A stretch of DNA of 64,000 nucleotides from Streptomyces sp. NBS 14/10 (GTDB lineage Bacteria; Actinomycetota; Actinomycetes; Streptomycetales; Streptomycetaceae), in assembly GCF_002224125.1 (NCBI RefSeq), contig NZ_NCSM01000020.1, forward strand, positions 1-64,000. Direction: 5' to 3'. The position numbers and the translations under genes are program-made. Of the stretch, positions 19,371 through 64,000 are shown in pieces; the stretch's first letter is position 1; each line of letters opens with the position of its first letter. Below the pieces are notes generated by a model, which had not been told where the DNA came from, ran no database searches, and worked only from the letters and a program-made list of their open reading frames with translations.

Positions 19371-20918
19371 ATGAGCGGTGAACAATTCGACAGCGTGGAA
19401 GCGTTGTTGGAAGAGGCGCGATTGACGGCGCGGATGCCGGAGCCGGCCGAGCGTCTGCGGCTGCGGCAGGCGGCCGGTCTCTCGCGCGCTCAGGTGGCGG
19501 CGGCGGTGGGTGTCGGTCGGCAGACGGTCGCCAACTGGGAGGACGGCAGTACTGACCCCCAACCGCCGGGGCGCTTTAAGTACCTGCGGCTACTGGAGGG
19601 CCTGGCCCAGATCCACCCCGCCGCCGCCCCGGCCCAAGGACCCGCCGAGACAGCCGCCCCGAGCGGCGCCCCGGCCGCAGGGTCCGCTGTTCCCGAGACC
19701 GCGTGGGCCCCCAACGGACTGGCCGTCCAAGGCGAGCCCGCCCCCTGTGTCCGCTGCGGCGTCGCGACGCCCTACAAGGCCACGGATGGCCGTTCCCTGC
19801 ACCCCGGCGCCATGTGCCAGCCCCCTGCTGCCACGCCTCAGGCTGCCGGCCGCTCCGCCCCGGCCACCACACCCTCACCCGGCCCGGCCGCGGTGCCGGT
19901 GCCCTCGCGGCCGCAGCGCCGGGCGAAGTCCGCGGCCCGCGCGCAGGCGGAGACCACCGGCTTCATCGGCCAGGCCGTGCACGAAGAGCTCGAGCGCGCC
20001 CAGGGCGACGCCGAGGCTGCGGTGAAGGCCCTGGTCAAGCGTGCCATCCCGGACGTCATGCGCCTGTTCGAGGAGACCCGTGCAACCGCCCGCTACACCT
20101 ACACCGCCTACCCCGCCCTGCCCGACATCCTCACGAAGCCCTCGAAGAAGGAGCCGGACCAGATCTGGGAGGCCCGCCCCAACTTCCACCACCCCCACTA
20201 CTCCCTCAAAAGCCCTGGGAGCATCGAGGTCACCGCACTGGACGTCAACGCCGCCTACCTCTCCGCCCTCAAGACCTGGCTCCCGATCGGGAAACTGGAA
20301 CACTCCACCGGCACGGACGGCGTGGACCCCAAACGCTCCGGAGTCCACCTGATCACCCCCGCCCCCTGGCACCACCCCCACCTCCCCGACCCCCTCGGCG
20401 ACCGCGACCAACCCGGCCCCCTATGGGTCACCAACGCCACCCTCCGCCTCCTGCTGCGCCTCTCCACGCCGAAATACGGCCTCCTCGACCCGCCGGTGGT
20501 GCACGAATCGTGGACGTCCGGCGCGACAGAGAATTTCCTGGACGCACTGCGGAAGACGCTCACCGCCGCACGGGAGACGGCCATCGCCGAGGACGACACC
20601 ATCACCCTCGAGTACATCAAGGCGATGTATTCGAAGTTCATCTCCACCATGGGCGAGTCGATCCACAACCGCGAAATCATGCGCCCGGACTGGATGCACA
20701 TCATCCACAGCCAGGCGTACGCCAACCTCTGGGGCAAGGCATACAAGGCCCACCAGGCCGGTCTGGACGTAATCGCCATGATGGGCACCGACGAGCTCCA
20801 CGTCACCGGCGACTGGCGGCAGGTCTTCCCCCAAGGACGAGGCGTCGCCCAGATGAAGATCAAACACAGCGACGCCAAGGCGTCCGGTGAGTACACCATC
20901 GGCACGGCGGCCCGCTGA
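19371..20918 (+). CDS. Tap-like protein: HTH plus protein-primed PolB-like domain
   Basis: The protein has 515 residues. The N-terminus carries an XRE-type HTH (LSRAQVAAAVGVGRQTVANW), then a CVRCG...GAMC possible zinc site in a Pro/Ala linker. From ~200 on it resembles protein-primed family B DNA polymerases: motif A DVNAAYLSAL (D291, Y296) followed by LPIGK, then LWVTNATLRLL, motif B-like KAMYSKFIS (Y420) and motif C-like MMGTDELHVTG (D474). Both metal-binding Asp positions are kept; the first Asp of the DTD triplet is Gly and the motif B Lys is not aligned, so activity is uncertain. The gene is coupled (TGATG) to a terminal-protein-like gene, the order of Tap-Tpg telomere operons in Streptomyces. 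No exonuclease domain is seen. Confidence 0.65.
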   Translation: MSGEQFDSVEALLEEARLTARMPEPAERLRLRQAAGLSRAQVAAAVGVGRQTVANWEDGSTDPQPPGRFKYLRLLEGLAQIHPAAAPAQGPAETAAPSGAPAAGSAVPETAWAPNGLAVQGEPAPCVRCGVATPYKATDGRSLHPGAMCQPPAATPQAAGRSAPATTPSPGPAAVPVPSRPQRRAKSAARAQAETTGFIGQAVHEELERAQGDAEAAVKALVKRAIPDVMRLFEETRATARYTYTAYPALPDILTKPSKKEPDQIWEARPNFHHPHYSLKSPGSIEVTALDVNAAYLSALKTWLPIGKLEHSTGTDGVDPKRSGVHLITPAPWHHPHLPDPLGDRDQPGPLWVTNATLRLLLRLSTPKYGLLDPPVVHESWTSGATENFLDALRKTLTAARETAIAEDDTITLEYIKAMYSKFISTMGESIHNREIMRPDWMHIIHSQAYANLWGKAYKAHQAGLDVIAMMGTDELHVTGDWRQVFPQGRGVAQMKIKHSDAKASGEYTIGTAAR

Positions 20919-21508
20919 TGGCCGGCACCAGCGGCCGGTGGAGGGACCTGGGCGCCTTCCGCGCCCGAGGCGTCCACGGGGGAGTGGCCCTGGCCGAAGA
21001 CATCGACCGAATGGTCACCGGCATCGAGTCCCCTGTCGACTCCGAGCGCGGTCTGGCCGCCCGCCTGCGCTACCTCACCGCCAGCGACGCCGGCTACGAA
21101 GCCATGGACCGCGCGGGCATCCACGTCAGACCCCGCACCCTCATCGCCTGGCTCGCCGGAGAACAGAACCCCAGCAAGGCCAACCTCACCCGACTGGACG
21201 CCGCGTACTGGGACCTGCGCCGCCGCAACGTCGCCGCCGACCTCAAACGCCGGCTCAACAACCGCGGCCGCGGAACCCGCATCGAGATCGACCCCGTCGA
21301 CCAGTCCCACGTCCAACACAGACACCAGCGCGACCTGCAGACCCGCAACATCAACGTACGCGGCGCCGTATGGGACCGCGCCGTCGACGCCTGGATCGCC
21401 GAAGACACGCAGGAACTCGAAGCCATCTGGGACGACATCATCCAAAGCACCCTCGGCACCGACTGGGACGCCTACACCCACGTCTCCTCCATCGGCTGGG
21501 CCGCCTGA
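20918..21508 (+). CDS. Tpg-like terminal protein candidate
   Basis: The protein has 196 residues. It has an HTH-like segment (AGIHVRPRTLIAWLAGEQ), an Arg-rich helix (YWDLRRRNVAADLKRRL), a strand GTRIEIDPVD and a helical acidic C-terminus ending in AYTHVSSIGWAA. Size, domain order and position right after the Tap/PolB-like gene match terminal proteins that cap and prime the 5' ends of linear Streptomyces replicons. The ATG overlaps the upstream TGA by one base. Proteins of this family are often named only as transcriptional regulators, so DNA-binding regulator is the alternative. The priming Tyr/Ser/Thr cannot be picked by eye. Confidence 0.6.
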   Translation: MAGTSGRWRDLGAFRARGVHGGVALAEDIDRMVTGIESPVDSERGLAARLRYLTASDAGYEAMDRAGIHVRPRTLIAWLAGEQNPSKANLTRLDAAYWDLRRRNVAADLKRRLNNRGRGTRIEIDPVDQSHVQHRHQRDLQTRNINVRGAVWDRAVDAWIAEDTQELEAIWDDIIQSTLGTDWDAYTHVSSIGWAA

Positions 21509-21694: not shown

Positions 21695-21795
21695 GTTGTC
21701 ACATAGGCAGGCTTGTTGTCACCGGCGGGGTCGGGGGCCATGGTCGGTGCTGTGCCGAGCCACGATAGCTGGCACCCGGCCACGCTGGTTGGCAT
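21695..21795 (+). repeat. Paired octamer repeats upstream of the APH-RAMA gene
   Basis: GTTGTCAC occurs at 21695-21702 and 21715-21722; variants GCTGGCAC (21768-21775) and GTTGGCAT (21788-21795) follow. Within each pair the copies start exactly 20 bp apart, two helical turns. Each pair begins with CACGATAG, so the two blocks look like diverged tandem copies 73 bp apart. They end 37 bp before the chosen ATG, suggesting regulator binding sites. Confidence 0.5.
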
Positions 21796-21832
21796 CGCCC
21801 TCGCTCATCTATGCCAAGATTCGAGGGTGGAG

Positions 21833-22786
21833 ATGACCGACGTCACGCGTGCGATCGCGGCTGCGACTTCGGTCGCCGCAGCGCTCGACCTGCCAGCCAA
21901 CGGCGCAGTCGTTCTCCACAACTCGAACAAGCTGGCACTGCGGCTGACGCCATGCGACGTCCTTGCCCGGGTCGCCCCTGTGGGACAAGAGGTTGCACAG
22001 TTCGAAGTCGAGCTCGCTCAGCGGCTCGCCGAGGTCGGATGCCCGGTGTGTCCTTTGGAGCCTCGGGTGGACCCGCGTGTGTACACGCGCGATGGCTTCG
22101 CAGTGACGCTGTGGACCTACTACGAGCCCGTGACACCTCACACCTCACCAGTCGACTACGCCAAGGCGCTGGAGCAGCTGCACGCCGGCATGCGCAAGGC
22201 CGATGTACCGAGCCCGAGGTTCACGGACCGGATCACGGAGGCGGAAGAAGTTGTCGCCGACCCGGACCGCTCGCCGGAGCTCGCCGACGCGGACCGCGTG
22301 TTCCTCAGCGGCAGGCTGGCAAGCCTGCGACGAGCGATCGACGACCGCGGCGCCGTGGAGCAGCTGCTCCACGGCGAGCCGCATCCAGGCAATGTGCTCG
22401 GCTTCCCCACTCCGACACCGCAAGACACCCCGCAGCCCGACCAGACCCCTGTCCCACAGCCACGCGCCAACCCAGCCCCACGCAAGACCGCCCGCCGCCG
22501 TACAGACGTGGCGAAGATGCTCGACGCCCGCATCCTCACAGCCGGAACCCGCATAGTCCTCACCCACCGCTCCATCGACCACTGGGCAACGATCAACGAT
22601 GACGGTGGCGTTGTGCTCAACGCCACCGGAGGAACACCCTACGGACGAGTGGACGAAGCCGGCGCCGTCGTCCGGGGCACCAAAACCTGCCAGGGCATGA
22701 AGGAATGGCACATCGAGGACGAGACAGGCACGCGACTCAGCCTGCGCACCCTGCGAGACCAGGCAGTAGCGGCTGGCCTCATGTAG
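21833..22786 (+). CDS. Phosphotransferase-like domain fused to RAMA domain
   Basis: The protein has 317 residues. Residues 1-190 resemble aminoglycoside/choline phosphotransferases: an N-lobe (NKLALRLTPCDVLARV), a hinge region (TLWTYYEPV) and a catalytic-loop-like HGEPHPGNVL in which the usual HGDxHxxN Asp is Glu. Immediately after this loop the kinase fold stops: the expected C-terminal D-x-D/E metal motif is missing and a Pro-rich linker follows. The last ~90 residues (LTAGTRIVLTHRS...GGVVLNATGG...GMKEWHIEDE) look like a RAMA domain, usually attached to restriction-modification or modified-base recognition proteins. The ATG at 21833 has GAGGG five bases upstream. The kinase is probably inactive; two Mrr-type genes follow. 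Confidence 0.6.
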   Translation: MTDVTRAIAAATSVAAALDLPANGAVVLHNSNKLALRLTPCDVLARVAPVGQEVAQFEVELAQRLAEVGCPVCPLEPRVDPRVYTRDGFAVTLWTYYEPVTPHTSPVDYAKALEQLHAGMRKADVPSPRFTDRITEAEEVVADPDRSPELADADRVFLSGRLASLRRAIDDRGAVEQLLHGEPHPGNVLGFPTPTPQDTPQPDQTPVPQPRANPAPRKTARRRTDVAKMLDARILTAGTRIVLTHRSIDHWATINDDGGVVLNATGGTPYGRVDEAGAVVRGTKTCQGMKEWHIEDETGTRLSLRTLRDQAVAAGLM

Positions 22787-23150: not shown

Positions 23151-23351
23151 ATGCCACCGCAGGGATACCACGTAGTCCGCAGCCACATACGGCGCAACCC
23201 GCGCCCTGCCGCGAAGAAGATGAGCGGCTGGATGATCGCCGCACTGATCGCGGGAGTCTGGCTATGGGGCCAGGCCTTCGGCTTCGGCGAAGCCAAGTCC
23301 GATGAACCGCCTTCACCCAAGCCCTCGGTGTCCGCCCCGGCGGCACCCTGA
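23151..23351 (+). CDS. Small single-pass membrane protein
   Basis: The protein has 66 residues. A basic N-terminus is followed by one membrane segment (GWMIAALIAGVWLWGQAFGF) and a Pro/Ser/Ala-rich tail (PPSPKPSVSAPAAP). The ATG at 23151 is preceded by GAGAGGAAAG. Its TGA overlaps the ATG of the Mrr-type nuclease gene by one base, so it is the first gene of that operon. The function is unknown; it may help place the nucleases at the membrane. Confidence 0.6.
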   Translation: MPPQGYHVVRSHIRRNPRPAAKKMSGWMIAALIAGVWLWGQAFGFGEAKSDEPPSPKPSVSAPAAP

Positions 23352-24031
23352 TGGCCCGGCGCCGGCTACGACTGCGCAAGCCTCGCGGCACCGGCGAGCA
23401 CATCGCGGCCACAATCGTCGCTCTGGCCGCGGTGACCTTGTTGTTCCAGATGGCTCTCGCGGCACAGAGCGCGGTGGCCCGAGGATGGCCGTTCCTCCTC
23501 GTCCTGACCGCCGGTGGCCTCATCTACGGGCTGTGGCGGCTGCTCCGCTCAGCCCGAGCACAGCGGGCTCGGTCCGACATGCTGGCACGATTGCGGATCA
23601 CGCTGGCCGATATCGACGCCATGAACGACAAGGAGTTCGAGGTCGCACTGCGGGACCTGCTCATCCGTGACGGCTGGCCGGCTCGGAGGGTAGGCGGTGG
23701 CGGAGATCAGGCCGCCGACGTCATCGGCGACCACCCGCAGCGCGGTCGGATCGTCGTGCAGGCCAAGCACACCCGCGTCGGCGGGAAGGTGGGGTCAGCG
23801 GTGATGTACGCGGTGAAAGGGACGGCAGGGCCGGTCCATAAGGCCGATCACGCTGTCGTCGTCACCAACGGGGCCTTCACCCGGGATGCCATGGCGTGGG
23901 GTGACCGGCACGGTGTCCACTGGGTCGACCGAAAGAAGCTCCAGCGCTGGGCCGAGAGTGGCGCCACCCTGCACGAACTTCTCGGAGTGTCCGCGCGCTC
24001 CCGCCCGAGCCGGTTCAAGCGCGCTGCCTGA
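23351..24031 (+). CDS. Membrane-anchored Mrr-type restriction endonuclease
   Basis: The protein has 226 residues. Two N-terminal membrane helices (about 18-38 and 46-65) precede an Mrr catalytic domain. Glu in FEVALRDLL, Asp in GDQAADVIGD and Lys in IVVQAKHT fit the PD-(D/E)xK pattern of restriction-endonuclease-like enzymes. Soluble Mrr proteins cut methylated foreign DNA; a membrane tether suggests action at DNA entry, which is inference. The start ATG overlaps the previous stop (TGATG). A second, diverged copy follows after 43 bp. Confidence 0.75.
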   Translation: MARRRLRLRKPRGTGEHIAATIVALAAVTLLFQMALAAQSAVARGWPFLLVLTAGGLIYGLWRLLRSARAQRARSDMLARLRITLADIDAMNDKEFEVALRDLLIRDGWPARRVGGGGDQAADVIGDHPQRGRIVVQAKHTRVGGKVGSAVMYAVKGTAGPVHKADHAVVVTNGAFTRDAMAWGDRHGVHWVDRKKLQRWAESGATLHELLGVSARSRPSRFKRAA

Positions 24032-24074
24032 CCAGCAGGGTCCCGGATCATCATCCATCACGTCTGGAGGTGTG

Positions 24075-24788
24075 GTGTTCGACGAAGACGGGTCGCTCGA
24101 CCCGACTCTGAAGTTCCTGCTCTACGCGGTCCTCACGCTGGCCGCGGGCAAGATGCTCTGGGAATGGCTCACCGAGGACGTCACCCGGTGGATCACCGTT
24201 GACCTGTGGGGCCCGATAGCCGACCACCCGTGGTGGACCGGCCTCATCGCAGCCAGCGGACTGCTCGTGCTCCTGCTGCTCGGCAAGCTCCTGTCATTCC
24301 TGCTCGAGGCCGGCATCTACGTCGGTCCGGACGACACGTTCGCCGATCTGTCCGACAATTCAGCCGACCCGGATGTGCTGACGTTCAAGATGAAGCAGCT
24401 GTCCGCGATGAGTGCGACGGGCTTCGAGCAGGCATGCGCCGATCTTCTGGCCCGTGACGGATTCCGGAGTCCGCGGCGGGTCGGCGGCGCCGGGGACCTC
24501 GGCGTGGACGTCACCGCCCGCGATGACGAAGACCGTCTCCTGATACTGCAGTGCAAGCAGTACCAGAACCCAGTCGGATCAGGCCACGTGCAGAAATTCA
24601 ACGGGACAGCCCGCCTGCACCACGGAGCCGACCTCCCCATCATGATCGCGCTCAACAGCTTCACCCAGCCGGCAACCGACTTCGCCCAGCACCACCAGCT
24701 CATCCTCATGGGCCGCCCGGAACTCAAGAGATGGGCCCATGGCCAGCACCTCTACGACGTCCTCGGCATCCAGAGCACGACACCGTGA
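24075..24788 (+). CDS. Second membrane-anchored Mrr-type endonuclease
   Basis: The protein has about 237 residues. An N-terminal helix (FLLYAVLTLAAGKMLWEWL) and a strong membrane segment (LIAASGLLVLLLLGKLLSFLL) precede the Mrr domain: Glu in TGFEQACADLL, Asp in GDLGVDVTAR and Lys in LILQCKQY. The GTG at 24075 has GGAGG four bases upstream; another GTG lies at 24072. It shares layout but only limited identity with the preceding nuclease, so the pair may be an old duplication or a heteromeric enzyme. All catalytic residues are present. Confidence 0.75.
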   Translation: MFDEDGSLDPTLKFLLYAVLTLAAGKMLWEWLTEDVTRWITVDLWGPIADHPWWTGLIAASGLLVLLLLGKLLSFLLEAGIYVGPDDTFADLSDNSADPDVLTFKMKQLSAMSATGFEQACADLLARDGFRSPRRVGGAGDLGVDVTARDDEDRLLILQCKQYQNPVGSGHVQKFNGTARLHHGADLPIMIALNSFTQPATDFAQHHQLILMGRPELKRWAHGQHLYDVLGIQSTTP

Positions 24789-55914: not shown

Positions 55915-58230
55915 ATGACCGTGCCGCCCGCCCCGTCACCCGGCGACCGCATCGACGGAGTCGTCGACCACCTCGTCCACGTCACCTACGACCACCACAC
56001 CATCCTGCGCCTGGCCATCGCCGATGACGCACCGACCTCCCGCACGGTCACCGCGGTCGGCAAGGCACTGTTCGGTACACAGCCGGGGGAGAACCTGCGC
56101 CTGACCGGCACATGGATCAACCACCCCCGCTACGGCCGACAGTTCAAGACCGAGACCTGCGAGCGGACCTGGCCGGCCACCGCCCGCGCGATCCGCCTCT
56201 ACCTCGCCTCCGGAATGATCCACGGCATCGGCAAGACCCTGGCCACCGCCATCACCAACCAGTTCGGCGAGCAGACCCTCCACGTCATCGACACCAACCC
56301 CAAGCGCCTCCTGCAGGTCCACGGCATCGGCCCCACCCGCCTGGAACGCATCGCCCAGGCCTGGCGCACCCAGAAGACCATCGCCGAGATCATGGTCTTC
56401 CTCCAAGGCCTCAACATCCCCGCCCACCTGGCCGTGAAGATCTACCAGACCTACAGCAAGGCCGACCAGGACCCCATGGAGGTCGTACGCCACAACCCCT
56501 ACCGGCTATGCCGCGACATCCACGGCATCGGCTTCGAGACCGCCGACCGCATCGCCCTCGCCACCGGCATCCCCAAACACAGCGACCAACGCCTCCAAGC
56601 CGCCCTCCTCCACACCCTCACCCAAGCCCGCAGCCACGGCGACTGCCACCTACCCGAACGCGTCCTCCTCGCCCGCACCCGCCACCTCCTGACCGACGAC
56701 GACCCCACCACCACAGAAATCCTCGAAGACCCCATCCTGCGCCAATCCCTGGAAGTCCTGCGCGCCCGCGGCGAGACGGTCATCGAAGACCTCCCCGCAC
56801 CCGTCCTCGAGGACGGCAGTGTCTTCCACGCGGTCACCGTCGTCAGCCTCGCCTGGATGCACCGCGCCGAGGCAGGACTGGCCGAAGACATCCTGCGCCT
56901 GCACCACGCCCCGCCCACCCTGGCCGACCACGCCGACTGGACCACCCTCCTCACCCACACCGCCCCCAACAACCTGACCAGCGAACAACAACAAGCCATC
57001 CTGACCGCCCTCACCCAGCCACTATCCGTCATCACCGGAGGCCCCGGCTGCGGCAAGACCCACCTGCTCCGCACCCTCGTCACCCTCACCGGCCAGACGG
57101 GCGTCTCCGTCGCGCTGGCGGCCCCGACTGGGAAAGCCGCCAAGCGCATGGAAGAGGCCACGGGACACGCGGCCATGACCGTGCACCGCCTGACCAGACC
57201 CCCACTCGACACGCTGGCCCAGGCTGATCACAGCAGTCTGCTGGAGGACACCGACCTGGTCGTCATCGATGAAGCCTCCATACTGGATGTCCAACTCGCA
57301 GCCCAGCTCACCTCGGCCGTGCGCACCGGCTGCCACCTCCTCCTGGTCGGCGACACCAACCAGCTGCCCAGCGTCGGCCCCGGCCGCGTGCTGCGCGACC
57401 TCCTCGCCGTTCCCGACATCCCCCGCACCCGGCTCACCCACGTCTTCCGCCAGGACAACGACAGCGCAGCCATCATCGACAACGCCCACCGCATCCTGCG
57501 CGGCCAGCCACCCCAGCCCGCCCCCGGCGTCTTCGGCTGCCGCCCCCTCGAAGACCCCGAGGCCATCGTCGAACACGTCGTGGACCTCGTCGCCACCCTC
57601 ATTCCGCAGCACTTCGACGCCGCGCCCGAGGACATCCAGGTTCTGTGCCCTGCCCGGCGCCACGCAGCAGGCGTCCTCGCCCTCAACGCCCGTCTCCAGG
57701 CCAGGCTGAACCCGCCGTCACCGGACAGGCCACAGCATCATCATGAGGGAGTCGTCTTCCGCGTCGGAGACCGCGTCCTGCAGATCCGCAACCAGCCCCA
57801 CCGCGGCCGCACCGGCGTCTTCAACGGATCCACCGGCACCATCACCGCCATCGACACCGAAACCCGAGAACTCGCCGTCACCCTGAGCGACGGCGAAACC
57901 GTGCCCTACGCCTTCAGCGACCTCGATGAACTTCTCCATGCCTATGCGCTGACGGTTCACCGGTCTCAGGGCAGTGAATACCCCTACGTCGTCATCCCTG
58001 TCACGACTTCGGCCGGGCCGCTTCTCCAGCGCAATCTGCTCTACACGGCCGTCACGCGCGCACGCCGCGGCGCCGTGCTCCTCGGCCAGCCCACCGCCGT
58101 ATACAGGGCTATGGCCAACACGCATGGTCGGCGCCGCTTCACTGCACTCGAACACCGCATCCTCCGGCGAGTCGCAGTCATGCCTCGTTCGCTTGGTCTC
58201 GATCGTGCTGGACAACTCAGCTGGAGTTGA
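55915..58230 (+). CDS. RecD2-like superfamily 1B DNA helicase
   Basis: The protein has 771 residues. The N-terminal half has three helix-hairpin-helix turns (IHGIGKTLA, VHGIGPTRLERI, DIHGIGFETADRI), typical of RecD2. The helicase core has Walker A GGPGCGKTH, APTGKAAKRM, motif II VVIDEASILD, VGDTNQLPSVGPG, an SH3-like insert (RVGDRVLQIRNQPHRG) and motifs V/VI (LTVHRSQGSEYPYVV, YTAVTRARRG). RecD2 unwinds 5'-3' in repair, without RecBC. The protein lies 141 bp after the SLOG gene, probably in the same transcript. Only a weak ribosome site was seen. Confidence 0.87.
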   Translation: MTVPPAPSPGDRIDGVVDHLVHVTYDHHTILRLAIADDAPTSRTVTAVGKALFGTQPGENLRLTGTWINHPRYGRQFKTETCERTWPATARAIRLYLASGMIHGIGKTLATAITNQFGEQTLHVIDTNPKRLLQVHGIGPTRLERIAQAWRTQKTIAEIMVFLQGLNIPAHLAVKIYQTYSKADQDPMEVVRHNPYRLCRDIHGIGFETADRIALATGIPKHSDQRLQAALLHTLTQARSHGDCHLPERVLLARTRHLLTDDDPTTTEILEDPILRQSLEVLRARGETVIEDLPAPVLEDGSVFHAVTVVSLAWMHRAEAGLAEDILRLHHAPPTLADHADWTTLLTHTAPNNLTSEQQQAILTALTQPLSVITGGPGCGKTHLLRTLVTLTGQTGVSVALAAPTGKAAKRMEEATGHAAMTVHRLTRPPLDTLAQADHSSLLEDTDLVVIDEASILDVQLAAQLTSAVRTGCHLLLVGDTNQLPSVGPGRVLRDLLAVPDIPRTRLTHVFRQDNDSAAIIDNAHRILRGQPPQPAPGVFGCRPLEDPEAIVEHVVDLVATLIPQHFDAAPEDIQVLCPARRHAAGVLALNARLQARLNPPSPDRPQHHHEGVVFRVGDRVLQIRNQPHRGRTGVFNGSTGTITAIDTETRELAVTLSDGETVPYAFSDLDELLHAYALTVHRSQGSEYPYVVIPVTTSAGPLLQRNLLYTAVTRARRGAVLLGQPTAVYRAMANTHGRRRFTALEHRILRRVAVMPRSLGLDRAGQLSWS

Positions 58231-58614
58231 AGTGCTTCCCACAAGCCAGCTGTGGGCAGGCGGTCCCATCACCCGGTGCCTGCGGATAGTCACTCTTCTT
58301 CTGTTCATAGCTGATGCCAGGACGGATTAAGAAGCCATCGGCGTCGGAGTTGGCCAGGTCGAAGGCAGCGTCGTCCACGGCGACCAGCACCCACTGGCGT
58401 ACCAGGCCCCGTAGAGGTCTCGATCGGCTGCGGCGGCCGGTAATCCTAGGTCTCCTTCAGTGTCCCATCCATGACCGCTCAGTGTACGGAGTCGCAGGCC
58501 CTTCTCGTTCCCCTCTCCGGCGAACAAGCACTGAGCCGCCCTAGCACGGGTGCAAACTCGATTCCAGCGCCGGGAAACGAAGCAATCTCGCTACTTTGGG
58601 CCCTGGCATCGGAC
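58231..58614. other. Gap with a possible minus-strand remnant
   Basis: A minus frame without a start reads LRGLVRQWVLVAVDDAAFDL and then SDADGFLIRPGIS, which looks like former protein; a neighbouring frame gives GLRLRTLSGHGWDTEGDLGL. A frameshift could join them. No family is recognised. Confidence 0.3.
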
Positions 58615-60474
58615 TTACCAGGGGGCCGCTGTATCGCCAGATGGCTCCAGCCCGAAGAGCACAATCAAGCGGGCCTCATCACGTCGGCCAGAGTGTTCAA
58701 GATACTTGGCCAACTCATAGCGCGCGGATGTGTCACCCAGCAGCGCAGCTGCGCGCGCAGCACTCTCGATGTCCGCCGATTGCGGATTCATTCTGGCCAG
58801 CTGGTAGCTCGCAGCCGGCTCGCCTGCCTCGGATGCCCTGCTCAAGCACTGCTCAGCCTCCACGATACGACCGGCCCGCCGATATTCGGTGGCCAGTGCC
58901 ATTATCGCATCGGCGTCATTGGCCTCAGCGGCGTGGTGGAGGAGCTGTTGGGCGTGGGTTGTTTGTCCGTGGTGTTCGAGTCTGCGGGCTAGTTCGAGTG
59001 TGGCGTCGGTGTTGCCGGCGTTGCTGGCTTGTTGGAGGAGTTTGAGTGCTTGTTCGGGCTGGCCGGTGCGTTCGAGCAAGCCGATGAGTTGGTAGGTGGC
59101 GCAGCTGTTGCCACCCTCATCGACGAGGTGGGCTAGTGTCTCCGCCTCGCTGTGTCGCCCTGAACGTTCAAGGAGCCCCACAAGTTCATCCAGCGCGTAC
59201 AAGTCACCTAGAGCCGTTGCACGACGCAGTGCGACTTCGGCTTCTTCGGTACGGTGCACTCGCTCCAGACGGCGGGCGAGTTGGCACATCGCAAACGTAT
59301 CGTCTTGCTCGGCTGCGAGCTCATACAACCGAACGGCGCAGCGGAATAGGCTCCGCTTCTCCGCTGAAACCCCCGCTCTGACCAGGTCGGTAGGGCTGGC
59401 TGTATGCTCAAGAAGTGCTTCCCACATCTCGGTAGGAACTGGTGCTGGCACGCGTGAGTGGCGGGCATGATCGCATAGATGACGAGCAATGATGAATTTA
59501 TCTGATTGGTGCTCTTCCTCCCTGGAGACCAAGGTGAGTGGGCTCATTGCTCCCTTAACGGAAGCGGTTGCCTGTTGGAGAGCTGTTCCGAACCAGTGGT
59601 GCGCAGAAAACGTTCCACCGCGGGAACGTAAGTACCCAACAGCAGCACGTTCGAGTAAAGGGAGAGGTAAGGGGTTCACATGGCCAAGCAGTGTCGCTTC
59701 CACCCCTGCGGTGATGATTGCCTGAGCTCCCGGATTAGCGAAACGCTCGGCGTACTCGATGACCTGGAAGGCGCCGGAGACGAGCTGAAGGACCCTGCTG
59801 TGATCTCCTACGGTGTCGTCGACGTCATCCCAGATAAGGCTAGGGAGGGTACCTTGAGCCATGCTCAGCTCCTTAGCGGTTAATCCTCCGGGGACTTGAA
59901 CCGGTTCGGCCTGTCGCAATAGAACCCGGACATCGTCGTGAATGTCCTGCTGTTTATGCCCCGGTGTGCTGACTAGAGAATTCCACCGCGTTAGCCGCAT
60001 TTCGCCGATCACCGTGGTTCTCTTGGAGGTTTCTAGAAGGTGGCTCAGCATTTTTGCCAGGACTTTTCCGTGCTCGCTGACCAGAACTTCATCGAGTGGT
60101 CCGAGCCACAGGATGACATCGGTATCGACGTCCGCGCTGTCCAGCCATTCGATTAACTTCTCGATGCTGGGTTGATGCACCAGAAGACGCGCCGGGAACC
60201 GGCTACGGATGCACTCGTATGCCGAACGAGACTTTCCAGTCGAACCCTCGCCAAGCATTATTGTGAAGGCGCCGTCGGGATGGCAGCGGTCCAATGCGGC
60301 ATATAAGGATTCATCATGTTCGCGTTCAATGTAATCAGTCATTGATTCGCGCCCGACCGGCTGATGAACGCCCAGCGATAAGGGATCCCATTTCTCGACT
60401 GACTTTATGTAAATGTGCTGTTCTTGATGCGCACAACTTGCGCTTCCGAACGAAGTTTGCTGCCGGTTTTTCAT
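58615..60474 (-). CDS. P-loop NTPase with TPR/Sel1-like repeats
   Basis: The protein has 619 residues. A P-loop sits near residue ~75 (MLGEGSTGKSRSAYE), with an acidic strand ILWLGPLDEVLV and TTVIGEMRLT after it. From ~370 on there are about nine helical repeats of ~30-36 residues (LARRLERVHRTEEAEVALRRA, LLERTGQPEQALKLLQQASN), TPR/Sel1-like. The ATG at 60474 has GGAGG eight bases upstream. The layout (NTPase plus helical repeats) resembles STAND sensors, but no effector domain is visible, so the role is unknown. The DNA is less GC-rich than the window average. Confidence 0.7.
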   Translation of the reverse strand: MKNRQQTSFGSASCAHQEQHIYIKSVEKWDPLSLGVHQPVGRESMTDYIEREHDESLYAALDRCHPDGAFTIMLGEGSTGKSRSAYECIRSRFPARLLVHQPSIEKLIEWLDSADVDTDVILWLGPLDEVLVSEHGKVLAKMLSHLLETSKRTTVIGEMRLTRWNSLVSTPGHKQQDIHDDVRVLLRQAEPVQVPGGLTAKELSMAQGTLPSLIWDDVDDTVGDHSRVLQLVSGAFQVIEYAERFANPGAQAIITAGVEATLLGHVNPLPLPLLERAAVGYLRSRGGTFSAHHWFGTALQQATASVKGAMSPLTLVSREEEHQSDKFIIARHLCDHARHSRVPAPVPTEMWEALLEHTASPTDLVRAGVSAEKRSLFRCAVRLYELAAEQDDTFAMCQLARRLERVHRTEEAEVALRRATALGDLYALDELVGLLERSGRHSEAETLAHLVDEGGNSCATYQLIGLLERTGQPEQALKLLQQASNAGNTDATLELARRLEHHGQTTHAQQLLHHAAEANDADAIMALATEYRRAGRIVEAEQCLSRASEAGEPAASYQLARMNPQSADIESAARAAALLGDTSARYELAKYLEHSGRRDEARLIVLFGLEPSGDTAAPW

Positions 60475-60886
60475 GTCATGAACCTCCGCTAGTCGTGGTG
60501 CGGTCGAGGGCAGCTGGGTGCTGCGCTGGTCGCCTCAAGTATGCTGCCGCCTAAATTGCGGGCGTCACAGTTGACGCAGATCTTCCAGGCCGAAGACGAG
60601 TGGGCCTTGGCGGCTCGGAGAACGTGCGTGCCGTGGTGGCGAGACAGATTTCGACGGTGAGATAACTTCAACTCTGCAGAATGGAATGCCACTTGGCATG
60701 GTAGCAAGATATGGGCTCAGCTGACGGTGTTTCGGACGGTGGGTCTATCATCCGGTTCGCGCGACTTACTAGAGAGCTGCACCCTATGCTGCGAATCGCC
60801 TTGGCAGTCAGAGCAACTCCGCTGGCAACGGTGTGTCCTGCGTGTGTTGGAAGGGGGCGTCTGGCTGCCCAGGCTCTTTACTGACC
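60475..60886. other. Gap with no supportable gene
   Basis: About 410 bp between two minus-strand genes. Short frames on both strands lack ribosome sites and family signatures. The promoter of the P-loop/TPR gene should lie in its first part. Confidence 0.45.
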
Positions 60887-61696
60887 TCATACTTCCGTAT
60901 CCGCCACTCGCACAGTCGTTTGCTCCATAAATTCTCCCAGTAACTGCGTGTCTACCCCGTCGTCCACCACAAGGTAGTCGAAATCCTCTACGGAGCACAG
61001 TCGGTGCAGTGCGGTGCGTTTAATCTTGGTCCCGTCCATCAACAGCACCTTGCGCCTTCCTGCAGTGAGCATTGCCTGCTTCACCAGTACGACCTCCTGT
61101 TCCTGGTGATAGGTGGTGTTGGAGTCCATCGCCATGGTGCTGACGAACACCATGTCCGCCGCTAAGGACTCGATCGCCTCCACGCATAGCACGCCGAAAA
61201 ACGCCTCGTGGGTGTGCGAGTAGTCCCCTCCCAGACCGACAAGCCGAGTCTGCGGGACTCCGGCGAAGATGTCGACGATGCGCCGGGCATTGGTCACTAC
61301 TGTCAGGGGAGCAACTGTCACCAGTAACTTTGCCAGAGCCAGCGCTGTGGTCGAGTCGTCCAGCATCACTGACATGCCGGGCTCGACCAGCTTTGCGGCA
61401 GTCGCCGCCACAGCTTCCTTCTGGGTGCGGTTCTCGCTCATTCGGTACTCGAGGTTGACTTGGAACACCGAGGGTGGCAGTGCAGAGACCCCACCCCGGA
61501 ACTTTCGCACTACGCCGAGTTTGGCCAGCTCACCCAGATCGCGGTGGACGGTCATTGTACTGACCCCTGTCAGCTCAGCTAACTCGGCTACGGTCGCGGT
61601 GCCTTGGTCGAGCACGTACTTGGAGATGATTTGCTTGCGTTCGTTGTGAGAACGGGCCGAGCTGCCCGCTGGGCTGAACTTGATCATATCCTCCAT
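60887..61696 (-). CDS. DeoR/GlpR-family transcriptional regulator
   Basis: The protein has 269 residues. The N-terminal HTH reads RKQIISKYVLDQGTATVAEL and VSTMTVHRDLGELAKLGVVR; the C-terminal DeoR sensor has GMSVMLDDSTTALALAKLL, VVTNARRIVDIF and VLLMDGTKIKR. The sensor binds sugar phosphates in this family. The start is ATG 61696 or 61687. It lies 206 bp downstream of the ABC exporter gene on the same strand and may regulate it or a sugar locus outside the window. Confidence 0.85.
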   Translation of the reverse strand: MEDMIKFSPAGSSARSHNERKQIISKYVLDQGTATVAELAELTGVSTMTVHRDLGELAKLGVVRKFRGGVSALPPSVFQVNLEYRMSENRTQKEAVAATAAKLVEPGMSVMLDDSTTALALAKLLVTVAPLTVVTNARRIVDIFAGVPQTRLVGLGGDYSHTHEAFFGVLCVEAIESLAADMVFVSTMAMDSNTTYHQEQEVVLVKQAMLTAGRRKVLLMDGTKIKRTALHRLCSVEDFDYLVVDDGVDTQLLGEFMEQTTVRVADTEV

Positions 61697-61902
61697 TCTT
61701 CCGTAGTTGACGTGTGGAGGGCGTAATCGGTCGGCGGCAGTCCTAAAACCTCCTAAAGAATGACCGATTGGGCCTGCGCCGCTTCCCTCGGCCGGCCATG
61801 CTCGCTCTGACTATCGAATGTAGCCAAATTGCATGTGGTGCGTATTCCGGAGGCGACAGTCACGCTCTCCGTTGATGAATCCCTGTACATGACATCGTTC
61901 AT

Positions 61903-64000
61903 TCAGTCAAGCTCGGCTCTCCTTTCCGGGTTTGCCAGCCACAAGCGGGCGTAGTGTCCGCCTGCTGCCAGTAGATCTGAGTGCTTACCCTGTTCAACGA
62001 GTCTTCCCCCGTCGAGCACAAGAACGTGGTCTGCGTTAGCTGCTGTCGTAAGCCTGTGTGTCACGGCGATCGTTGTCCGTTGGTGAATCAGTCGTCGATA
62101 TGCTTTGAGTACTAGCTCCTCGGTCATTGGGTCCAGCGCGGAGGTTCCCTCGTCCACGAGCAGTACATCCGGCTCCAGCAGCGCGGAACGGGCAAATGAG
62201 ACAAGCTGGCGTTGCCCTGCTGACAGACCTTGACCGCATTCTCCGACAGGGTGATGAAAACCATCGGGGAGCGAGGCCACCATGGCTAGCGCTCCGATTG
62301 TTCGGACGGCCTCTTCTATCTCGCTCACGCTGGCATGAGGGCGCCCATAGCAGATGTTCTCTGCCACGCTACCGGAGAATAGGTGCGCCTCTTGAGGGAC
62401 AATGCTGATCCGTTTTCGGAAATCAGAAATCAGGTAGTGGCGGATGTCCGTGCCGTCCAGAAGAATAATTCCCTCAGTTGCATTATAGAAGCGCGAAAGC
62501 AGTTTGATCAGGGTTGATTTTCCAGATCCCGAGCGGCCGACGATTGCGACGGTTTCACCGGGGTGGATGGTTAGTGAGATGTTTTTCAGTGCTGGGTCAA
62601 GTGCGCTGGCATAGCGGAAACTGACGTTCCTTAGTTCGATCACTCCGTGCAGCGGCTTTGGGATTGCTGCTGGGCTGACCGTTTCCTGTTCCGGGATTTT
62701 GACTTTTAGTAGATTGCTGATGCGCCCGATGCCGATCCGTGCCTGCTGGTAGGGATCGAAGACCCGAGTCAGTTGTTGTATCGGCTCGAAGAGTAGACGG
62801 CTGTAGAGCCAGACGGCAAGTAAGGTACCGGGGGTGAGAGTCCCGGCCTGTATTCGATATGCGCCGATGACGATGATCGCTGCATTGATCATTTGAGAAG
62901 CGAATGAGATGAACGGGAAGTATATAGCGACGTATTTCTGTGCGTGTAGTCGCGCTTTGCGATATTCATCGCTCTGTCCAGCGAACTTTTTCCATGCGTG
63001 ATTTTCACCTGAACATGCCTGGAGAGACCGGAGGCCTCGGATGTTGTCGCGGAGGGAAGAGTTGACCTGCCCCAAGTTCTCTCGTGCCGCAGTAGAAGCT
63101 CTGTTCATGTATCGGCCAAACAGCCAGGTGGTAGCTGTTAGTAGAGGGAGGCTCGTCAACGCACACAGAGACAAGGGAAAATCGGTTGCGACGAGCGCCA
63201 GCATGATTCCTGCGATACTGAAGATGCTCACAATTGAGACGGATAGACCGACTTGAATGAAACGCGACTGGGAGTCGATGTCTGCTGTCGTTGTCGTCAG
63301 GACGCGGCCGATGAGTTCACGCTCGTAGAAGTCGATACCGAGCCGTTGTAAGTGTGTATAGATATGTATGCGCAGAGAATATAGAAACGTTTCACCAACC
63401 CGTGCTGTGATAATGGATCGAGCCAGTGAAATAAGCCAACCGGCGAATACCATCAGGACGCTGAGCCCTGATATCAAAAGCAGAGGCTCGATTACGCCCG
63501 TGGCCACCGCATGGTCAATTCCTTGGCGCACTAGTTGGGGGAAGGCTAGGGAGACCAGCATCTCGCATGTAGCAAGGAGTACGGCTAGCGTAAGTCCTCG
63601 ACGGACGAGCACCACGGAATCCGCGAGCCGGAAACGACGGCGCGAAGGTGATGTTGACCAGTTCGCAGACAATCTCGGATTTTCCTCGGACGGCGGGGAG
63701 GCTGATGTATGGATCTGGGGAGGTGTGTCTCGCGACACGAGCTGGGATGGTGGGTCTGCTTTCTCCGGCCATAGAAGGAAGGCCGGAGGTTCTGAACCGC
63801 CATGCTGAGGGTTTTTGGTAGTGGAGTTGCTTTCGTGAGTACCGTCCTCTGTATCCCCGACCAAGTAGCGGAACAATGAGCATCGGCACATGAGCTCTGA
63901 TTGAGTTCCGATATCGACCACGGTGCCTTTATCGAGTACCGCTATTTTGTCGGCTAGGGCGAGCACTTCTTGGCTACGGCCGATAATGATGGTGGTGCAC
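61903..64000 (-). CDS. ABC exporter, 3' part of a tandem TMD-NBD protein (partial)
   Basis: The frame runs off the right edge of the window. Its first residues (IIIGRSQEVLALADKIAVLD, then KGTVVDIGTQSEL) are the end of a nucleotide-binding domain, so the full protein is a TMD-NBD-TMD-NBD fusion. After a polar linker come six membrane helices of an ABC exporter (LAVLLATCEMLVSLAFPQLV ... ) and a second NBD: Walker A GRSGSGKST, Q-loop VPQEAHLFSG, signature LSAGQRQL, Walker B VLLVDEGTSALD and switch His in AVTHRL. Fused exporters of this type in Streptomyces secrete peptides or natural products. The DNA here is clearly less GC-rich than most of the window, which suggests transfer. An internal ATG (63966) is not the start. 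Confidence 0.82.
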   Translation of the reverse strand, partial: CTTIIIGRSQEVLALADKIAVLDKGTVVDIGTQSELMCRCSLFRYLVGDTEDGTHESNSTTKNPQHGGSEPPAFLLWPEKADPPSQLVSRDTPPQIHTSASPPSEENPRLSANWSTSPSRRRFRLADSVVLVRRGLTLAVLLATCEMLVSLAFPQLVRQGIDHAVATGVIEPLLLISGLSVLMVFAGWLISLARSIITARVGETFLYSLRIHIYTHLQRLGIDFYERELIGRVLTTTTADIDSQSRFIQVGLSVSIVSIFSIAGIMLALVATDFPLSLCALTSLPLLTATTWLFGRYMNRASTAARENLGQVNSSLRDNIRGLRSLQACSGENHAWKKFAGQSDEYRKARLHAQKYVAIYFPFISFASQMINAAIIVIGAYRIQAGTLTPGTLLAVWLYSRLLFEPIQQLTRVFDPYQQARIGIGRISNLLKVKIPEQETVSPAAIPKPLHGVIELRNVSFRYASALDPALKNISLTIHPGETVAIVGRSGSGKSTLIKLLSRFYNATEGIILLDGTDIRHYLISDFRKRISIVPQEAHLFSGSVAENICYGRPHASVSEIEEAVRTIGALAMVASLPDGFHHPVGECGQGLSAGQRQLVSFARSALLEPDVLLVDEGTSALDPMTEELVLKAYRRLIHQRTTIAVTHRLTTAANADHVLVLDGGRLVEQGKHSDLLAAGGHYARLWLANPERRAELD

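Follow-up and report, generated by a model that had tools for sequence, protein, structure and literature searches.

A predicted family-B polymerase-like domain in a Streptomyces telomere-associated protein coupled to a terminal-protein-like gene

The closest described systems to the locus analysed here are pairs of a telomere-associated protein (TAP) and a terminal protein (TP), namely Tap-Tpg, Tac-Tpc of SCP1 and GtpB-GtpA of S. griseus, together with the protein-primed DNA polymerase of phage phi29. As given in the available part of PMC4513846, Tap and Tpg make 13 nt on Tpg in the absence of any other polymerase, the first step being strongly boosted by Mn, and Tac and Tpc are likewise active alone, with Tac deoxynucleotidylating Tpc; that part of the paper also states that a search for motifs of DNA polymerases was negative, and describes the proteins as polymerases of a new class. 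Priming on Tpg is assigned to T114 (available part of PMC3572947). For the atypical TAP/TP pair GtpB-GtpA, according to the accessible sections of PMC7205883, GGA-loop telomeres occur in strains in which GtpB-GtpA is the only detected system, the pair is also found in strains with other telomeres, and the loops of S. griseus 13350 are given as GCA in the Introduction and as GGA in the Results.

Here we describe a gene pair in the first 64,000 nt of contig NZ_NCSM01000020.1 of Streptomyces sp. NBS 14/10, the whole of which we call the window. We propose, with a probability of about 0.78, that the C-terminal ~300 residues of a 515-residue protein are a reduced protein-primed family-B polymerase of the phi29/tectivirus/adenovirus kind, residing in a telomere-associated protein and acting with the partner in TP-primed end patching. 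We likened GtpB-GtpA to the window pair by context (PMC7205883, accessible sections), and Tac-Tpc by its published activity only (PMC4513846, available part).

The gene pair and its coupling

The features of the pair are the following:

19371..20918, plus strand: telomere-associated protein of 515 aa, with a helix-turn-helix (HTH), a putative zinc finger and a family-B polymerase-like domain
19458..19595, plus strand: XRE-type HTH, residues 30-75 (Pfam HTH_31, 2.1e-8; VIA match to HTH repressors, model 22-80)
19746..19817, plus strand: putative zinc finger C126-C129-H144-C149, proposed from conservation, metal binding being presumed
19992..20912, plus strand: phi29-polymerase-like palm/fingers region, residues ~208-514
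20226..20270, plus strand: motif A EVTALDVNAAYLSAL, D291 codon at 20241-20243, aligning with the phi29 FDVNSLYPAQM stretch
20280..20291, plus strand: LPIG, counterpart of phi29 LPYG (LPIGK is residues 304-308)
20421..20453, plus strand: LWVTNATLRLL, residues 351-361, counterpart of phi29 LWLSNVDLELM and Tap WYATPTVAYA
20571..20573, plus strand: R401, aligned with phi29 K371
20613..20645, plus strand: motif B YIKAMYSKFIS (Y420, K422), aligned with phi29 LNSLYGKFAS
20778..20810, plus strand: motif C MMGTDELHVTG, D474 codon at 20790-20792, G472 in place of the first Asp
20856..20864, plus strand: K496-x-K498, beyond motif C
20918..21508, plus strand: partner terminal-protein-like gene of Tpg/GtpA type, 196 aa, assigned from a profile match to the Tpg family and the coupling
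21305..21307, plus strand: S130 of the partner, candidate priming residue in a [DN]Q-S/T context

The two ORFs overlap by 1 nt, as the TGA at 20916-20918 gives its A to the ATG of the partner. This coupling had been pointed out in an earlier sequence-only reading of the window, and it recurs at most of the relatives' loci. A downstream ORF (120-320 aa, at -40 to +120 nt) accompanies 113 of 136 distinct domain ORFs, and in 102 of those 113 cases it is similar to the partner in the window (phmmer E < 1e-3); the overlap is of the identical 1 nt for 57 of the 136. Among the 23 domain ORFs with no suitable downstream ORF, 12 have less than 400 nt of sequence remaining 3' of their stop. In phi29, too, the terminal protein gene adjoins that of the polymerase.

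When compared with the Tpg family profile, the partner family matched over its HTH half only (E 1.8e-5, Prob 78, score 39.8, the maximum in 60 block shuffles being 27.6), and a scan of the window partner with the Tpg model NF047541 gave no match. The C-terminal half does not align with Tpg, and the alignment stops short of T114. By conservation, S130 or T120 may be the residue that primes, with S130 as the best candidate: the two positions are S/T in 89% and 86%, respectively, of 57 nr85 partners.

Other ORFs lie nearby. Just 3' of the pair, 21713-22786 holds an ORF with an APH-like kinase match (RAMA fell below the cut-off), and the overlapping ORFs at 23351-24031 and 23886-24788 match Mrr-type restriction endonucleases (PF04471, 2.9e-19 and 4.3e-24). 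Toward the right end of the window (58000-64000) the G+C content falls to 61-55%, and there are three minus-strand ORFs of 269-687 aa.

Predicted fold and motifs of the C-terminal domain

Structure prediction and structure search, which the sequence-only reading had suggested as a check, found a family-B palm/fingers fold in the model. The AF2 alignment comprised 144 sequences less than 92% identical, of 240 listed (alignment A4 has 45 rows), and C126, C129, H144 and C149 of the window protein are each present in 105-107 of the 144 aligned homologues. In the predicted structure, the best-matched range pairs residues 223-514 with residues 188-496 of phi29 polymerase. A search of BFVD returned 15 matches at E <= 1e-3, of which 12 carry the name DNA polymerase. 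The viruses with these polymerases include phi29-like podoviruses, Streptomyces phage WheeHeim, Clostridium phage CPS1, a tectivirus and His1, as well as adenoviruses and bidna-, denso- and parvo-like viruses; of the other three matches, two are to poxvirus proteins and one has no name. Most of the polymerase-bearing viruses use protein priming. In the best-matched range, model residues 223-514, there was no match to the phi29 exonuclease or thumb, and the N-terminus of the window protein is an HTH; on our reading, DNA-binding modules would stand where the exonuclease would sit.

The motifs DVNAAYLSAL (motif A, including D291 and Y296), LPIGK, LWVTNATLRLL, KAMYSKFIS and GTDELHVTG were already named, with their residue numbers, in the sequence-only reading, and all are correct in the 515-aa ORF. 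In the best alignment to 55 phi29-like polymerases, D291 falls on D249, LPIG on LPYG, LWVTN on LWLSN, R401 on K371, and Y420 and K422 on Y390 and K392, and a low-confidence extension brings GTDELHVTG into register with phi29 DTDSIHLTG. No counterpart of the phi29 motif-B lysine K383 is kept in place in the window domain (we take the published phi29 numbers, used here throughout, to be those of the record plus three). In phi29, the metal ions are held by D249 and D458, and K371 touches the incoming dNTP. The window domain resembles phi29 gp2 (PF03175) in its palm/fingers fold over phi29 ~188-496, in motif order and in both metal-ligand Asp, and differs in its HTH/zinc-finger N-terminus, in the unmatched exonuclease and thumb, in the loss of the first motif-C Asp, in being encoded by a bacterial chromosomal or plasmid gene, and in its weak sequence similarity.

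To judge conservation we used 73 domain sequences less than 80% identical (that of the window protein is one of them), which differ in having an HTH, a DnaB-helicase or a longer N-terminus, drawn from loci L001-L232 minus the phage set, plus close homologues, and leaving out domain matches of fewer than 180 model positions. D291, R401 and D474 are present in 73/73, and the motifs are not a product of chance. Also at 100% are N293, A299, G324, W333, P339, P341, G343, G349, G489, K496 and K498; of these invariant residues, R401, N293, K496 and K498 had gone unmentioned in the sequence-only reading. Y420 is kept in 93% and K422 in 92%. The first motif-C Asp, correctly read before as Gly in the window protein, is G in 66 sequences, N in 5, H in 1, A in 1 and Asp in none, so that a complete DTD is absent from this family of 73. 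A divergent subgroup, which includes the DnaB_C fusions L053 and L212, has IDRNGS-Y/F-PSA as motif A and LRNVD or LGNTD as motif C. The first Asp of motif C is of lesser importance in RB69 and similar relatives.

Profile comparison with family B, which the sequence-only reading had also suggested as a check, went partly against its proposal: Pfam gave no match, and the profile-profile score was only marginal. The Pfam scan of the window protein returned only HTH families above cut-offs, with neither PF03175 nor another PolB family, no DNA-polymerase-B match appeared in scans of 63 canonical Taps or of one DnaB-fused relative, and PF03175 found nothing in the host genome. With the first, shallow alignments hhalign was uninformative on family B. 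Comparing the 73 sequences with the 55 phi29-like polymerases, it scored 26.0, higher than 60/60 column shuffles, but 3/60 block shuffles were higher still; under other local settings the score ranged from 20.0 to 32.0, and in global mode no alignment was obtained (score 1.1). Canonical Tap against the same polymerases scored 16.4, within the nulls and not significant, and merging Tap with GtpB-type sequences brought no gain (16.4 by default). As sequence profiles are weak or marginal, the family-B assignment stands on the predicted structure and the motif register. A tblastn search with the window protein against 50,697 phage records gave no match, and hence no direct phage ancestor was found.

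Relation to canonical Tap and distribution of the domain

The sequence-only reading took Tap-like proteins to be possible remodelled polymerases of the protein-primed type, and this proposal is backed by the predicted fold, by the homology of the window domain to the C-terminal half of Tap, and by the published polymerase activity of Tap (PMC4513846, available part). The window protein itself matches the Tap model NF047542 (telomere_Tap) partially, over residues 5-167 (E 2.2e-23; 82.9 bits, the cut-off being 600). When 37 Tap C-termini were compared with the 73 domain sequences, hhalign gave a probability of 97.5%, E 5.2e-12 and a score of 91.9 over 236 columns, and the controls reached at most 25.4 with column shuffles and 31.7 with block shuffles (60 each), and 10.9 and 13.8 with reversed profiles. 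Two proteins bridge the families: L324, matched by the canonical Tap query (7.7e-38) and by the window-domain profile (5.9e-13, in a set of 138 ORFs), and L362, from outside the Tap set, which matches both (4e-95 and 5.7e-8, in the same 138 ORFs). Because of the profile comparison and these bridging proteins, we consider the C-terminal half of Tap homologous to the window domain. In the alignment of 37 (which retains L323, a frame-disturbed fragment, and L343, without the motif A Asp), Tap shows D449 (95%), GPAWYATPT, K609-x3-KGG-x-GK618, D677 (97%) and GxxKxEG, and it also lacks the first motif-C Asp. Our structure model of canonical Tap was mostly below pLDDT 50 in the C-terminal half, the alignment being too shallow, and Foldseek with this low-confidence model returned mainly HTH proteins and no significant polymerase match (phi29 polymerase, E 0.44). 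Window pair and Tap-Tpg (NF047542/NF047541) share an N-terminal HTH segment, a homologous C-terminal domain, an operon with a small TP, a position near telomeres and a role there, whereas Tap has a middle part, exceeds the window protein by ~240 aa, and keeps K609, G617 and K618 of motif B.

This homology bears on whether the palm is catalytic. The domain might have kept the family-B fold as a degenerate, non-catalytic platform for terminal protein and overhang, with a host polymerase, DinB1 or DinB2, making the first bond, an idea raised in part by the sequence-only reading. The loss of the first motif-C Asp, the unmatched thumb and exonuclease, and the need of end patching for either DinB1 or DinB2 (PMC4513846, available part) speak for it. 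Against this, D291 and D474 are Asp in 73/73 sequences across distinct N-terminal architectures, and the homologue Tap, likewise devoid of the first Asp, deoxynucleotidylates with Tpg and no added polymerase (same source), so we regard a mere platform as unlikely. A one-Asp motif C with neither thumb nor exonuclease would fit short, Mn-stimulated synthesis. Much less probable is that the terminal protein, or nothing short of the heterodimer, is the polymerase, through a reverse-transcriptase-like site, the palm resemblance of the TAP being incidental: an RT-thumb-like motif has been claimed in Tpg (PMC4513846 and PMC3572947, available parts), but the segment overlaps the HTH of Tpg (PMC3572947, available part), and the palm-like fold and both Asp are located in the TAP.

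Among 296 genomes of the phylum, five, which all belong to the same genus, have matches that extend into the polymerase part; the remaining matches listed are to the N-terminal part. In 197 genomes of the order, Tap-type proteins occur in 128, the window-type domain in 59, both in 18 and neither in 28 (E cut-offs 1e-3 for Tap and 1e-5 for the window domain, two draws being assumed to be the same set); the mutual avoidance has a Fisher p of 9e-11, relatedness being ignored and fragments counted. The host itself carries three systems, a canonical Tap-Tpg on contig C35 (NF047542 1086 bits, NF047541 299 bits), the window pair on C41 and a third pair on C55 that is about half identical to it. C55 (L008, L367) has 21,274 bases, and its TAP/TP pair lies 0.8 kb from the end. 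The two ends of this contig carry the same 22-nt sequence in inverted orientation, which may point to a small linear plasmid or to a repeat produced by assembly.

The N-terminal part varies: proteins of HTH type have ~490-750 aa, those fused to a DnaB_C helicase ~720-1230 aa, and the rest reach 1444 aa. Long N-termini are found in L053, L163, L164, L168, L173, L175, L212 and L216, and Pfam identified a DnaB_C-like helicase in the six scanned (L053, L168, L173, L175, L212, L216), five of which have a Phd/YefM-like N-terminus. A TP-like gene with a 1-nt overlap follows L053, L163, L164, L212 and L216; none was found 3' of L168, L173 and L175. S. griseus NCTC13033 has two relatives, L098 of HTH type and L212, a DnaB-helicase fusion followed by a 185-aa TP-like gene; matches of canonical Tap type in this strain are short, and one of them is interrupted by stops. 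By context, L098 and L212 are candidates for GtpB (SGR_RS00475; partner SGR_RS00470). A 1260-aa protein (L361:3904-7686, minus strand) has a weak but significant domain match (E 6e-14, among the same 138 ORFs) with an altered motif A, QYDKSAAW, and is maybe another TAP class. An 890-aa ORF, helicase-like by eye, stands beside a canonical Tap in L007, and a gene annotated as 'Helicase associated domain protein' adjoins the TAP gene or is close to the telomere in five plasmid stretches (L010, L011, L368, L371, L374).

Telomeres, proposed mechanism and significance

Of ten plasmid records that carry a close copy of the gene, eight share a ~100-nt terminal sequence (one or both ends inspected), which in most of them has tandem hairpins and GTA/GGA loops on the 3' strand; the background for such hairpins is 0.165 per 200 nt, with a maximum of 2, in 200 random stretches. 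The sequence was not seen at the one end inspected in each of pSTRVI01 and CP120984, whose ends may be incomplete. Searched against 72,556 plasmid records, it gave 35 matches, the best place always lying within 50 nt of the record end. To relate it to the gene we took 28 records (H1-H28, at least 60% identity, the best among the 40 rows listed for 324 records), chosen on the TAP gene alone; in the four examined, the partner gene is its neighbour. The telomere sequence is present in 23 of the 28 and absent from 5, 12 of the 35 telomere records fall outside this set, and 17 of the 28 gene copies lie less than 20 kb from the record end (KS p 7e-5). In one relative the gene is 8.6 kb from both ends of a contig of 8.97 Mb. 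In the host, 34 nt of this telomere occur at C119:7509-7542, which leaves 44 nt to the end of the contig, and hairpins with TCC loops, readable in the sequence, come after them; no telomere was seen at the ends of C41, the window's own contig, or of C55. The view implied by current annotations, in which the window protein is a common HTH regulator accompanied by a small accessory gene (most of the source names listed are 'helix-turn-helix ...'), is hardly tenable in view of the fold, the telomere association, the subtelomeric position and the Tap homology.

Fold prediction, conservation, Tap homology, gene coupling and the telomere-class match were all computed for the window pair, and on them we build the following scheme for a reduced protein-primed polymerase. 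Replication forks would leave telomeric 3' overhangs, which would fold into hairpins with GTA/GGA loops and be held by the HTH/zinc-finger and polymerase-like parts of the 515-aa protein. The co-translated 196-aa partner would place a Ser/Thr hydroxyl, most probably that of S130, in the palm, where D291 and D474 would bind two metal ions and the first nucleotide would be joined to it; a short primer would then be extended on the partner before a host polymerase takes over. Catalysis would thus belong to the window protein, and the partner may replace the function of the thumb. We further find it reasonably probable that Tap, the GtpB type and the DnaB-helicase fusions form one superfamily of domesticated protein-primed family-B polymerases without exonuclease or thumb, with varied DNA-binding or helicase modules, catalysis by a one-Asp motif C, and the TP standing in for the thumb.

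In titles and abstract openings from the literature outside subscription papers and preprints, we did not find a link between Tap and family-B polymerases stated. A virus-type polymerase in a TAP could explain how telomere proteins with no recognised polymerase make DNA. Tap would gain a likely active site (D449, D677), an ancestry and residues for mutation, and the same domain is also fused to replicative-helicase modules in other proteins. The catalyst of end patching in linear bacterial chromosomes thereby becomes directly testable, and bacterial telomere maintenance would be linked to protein-primed viral replication. If the superfamily holds, it would be a bacterial counterpart of telomerase built from a virus-type polymerase.
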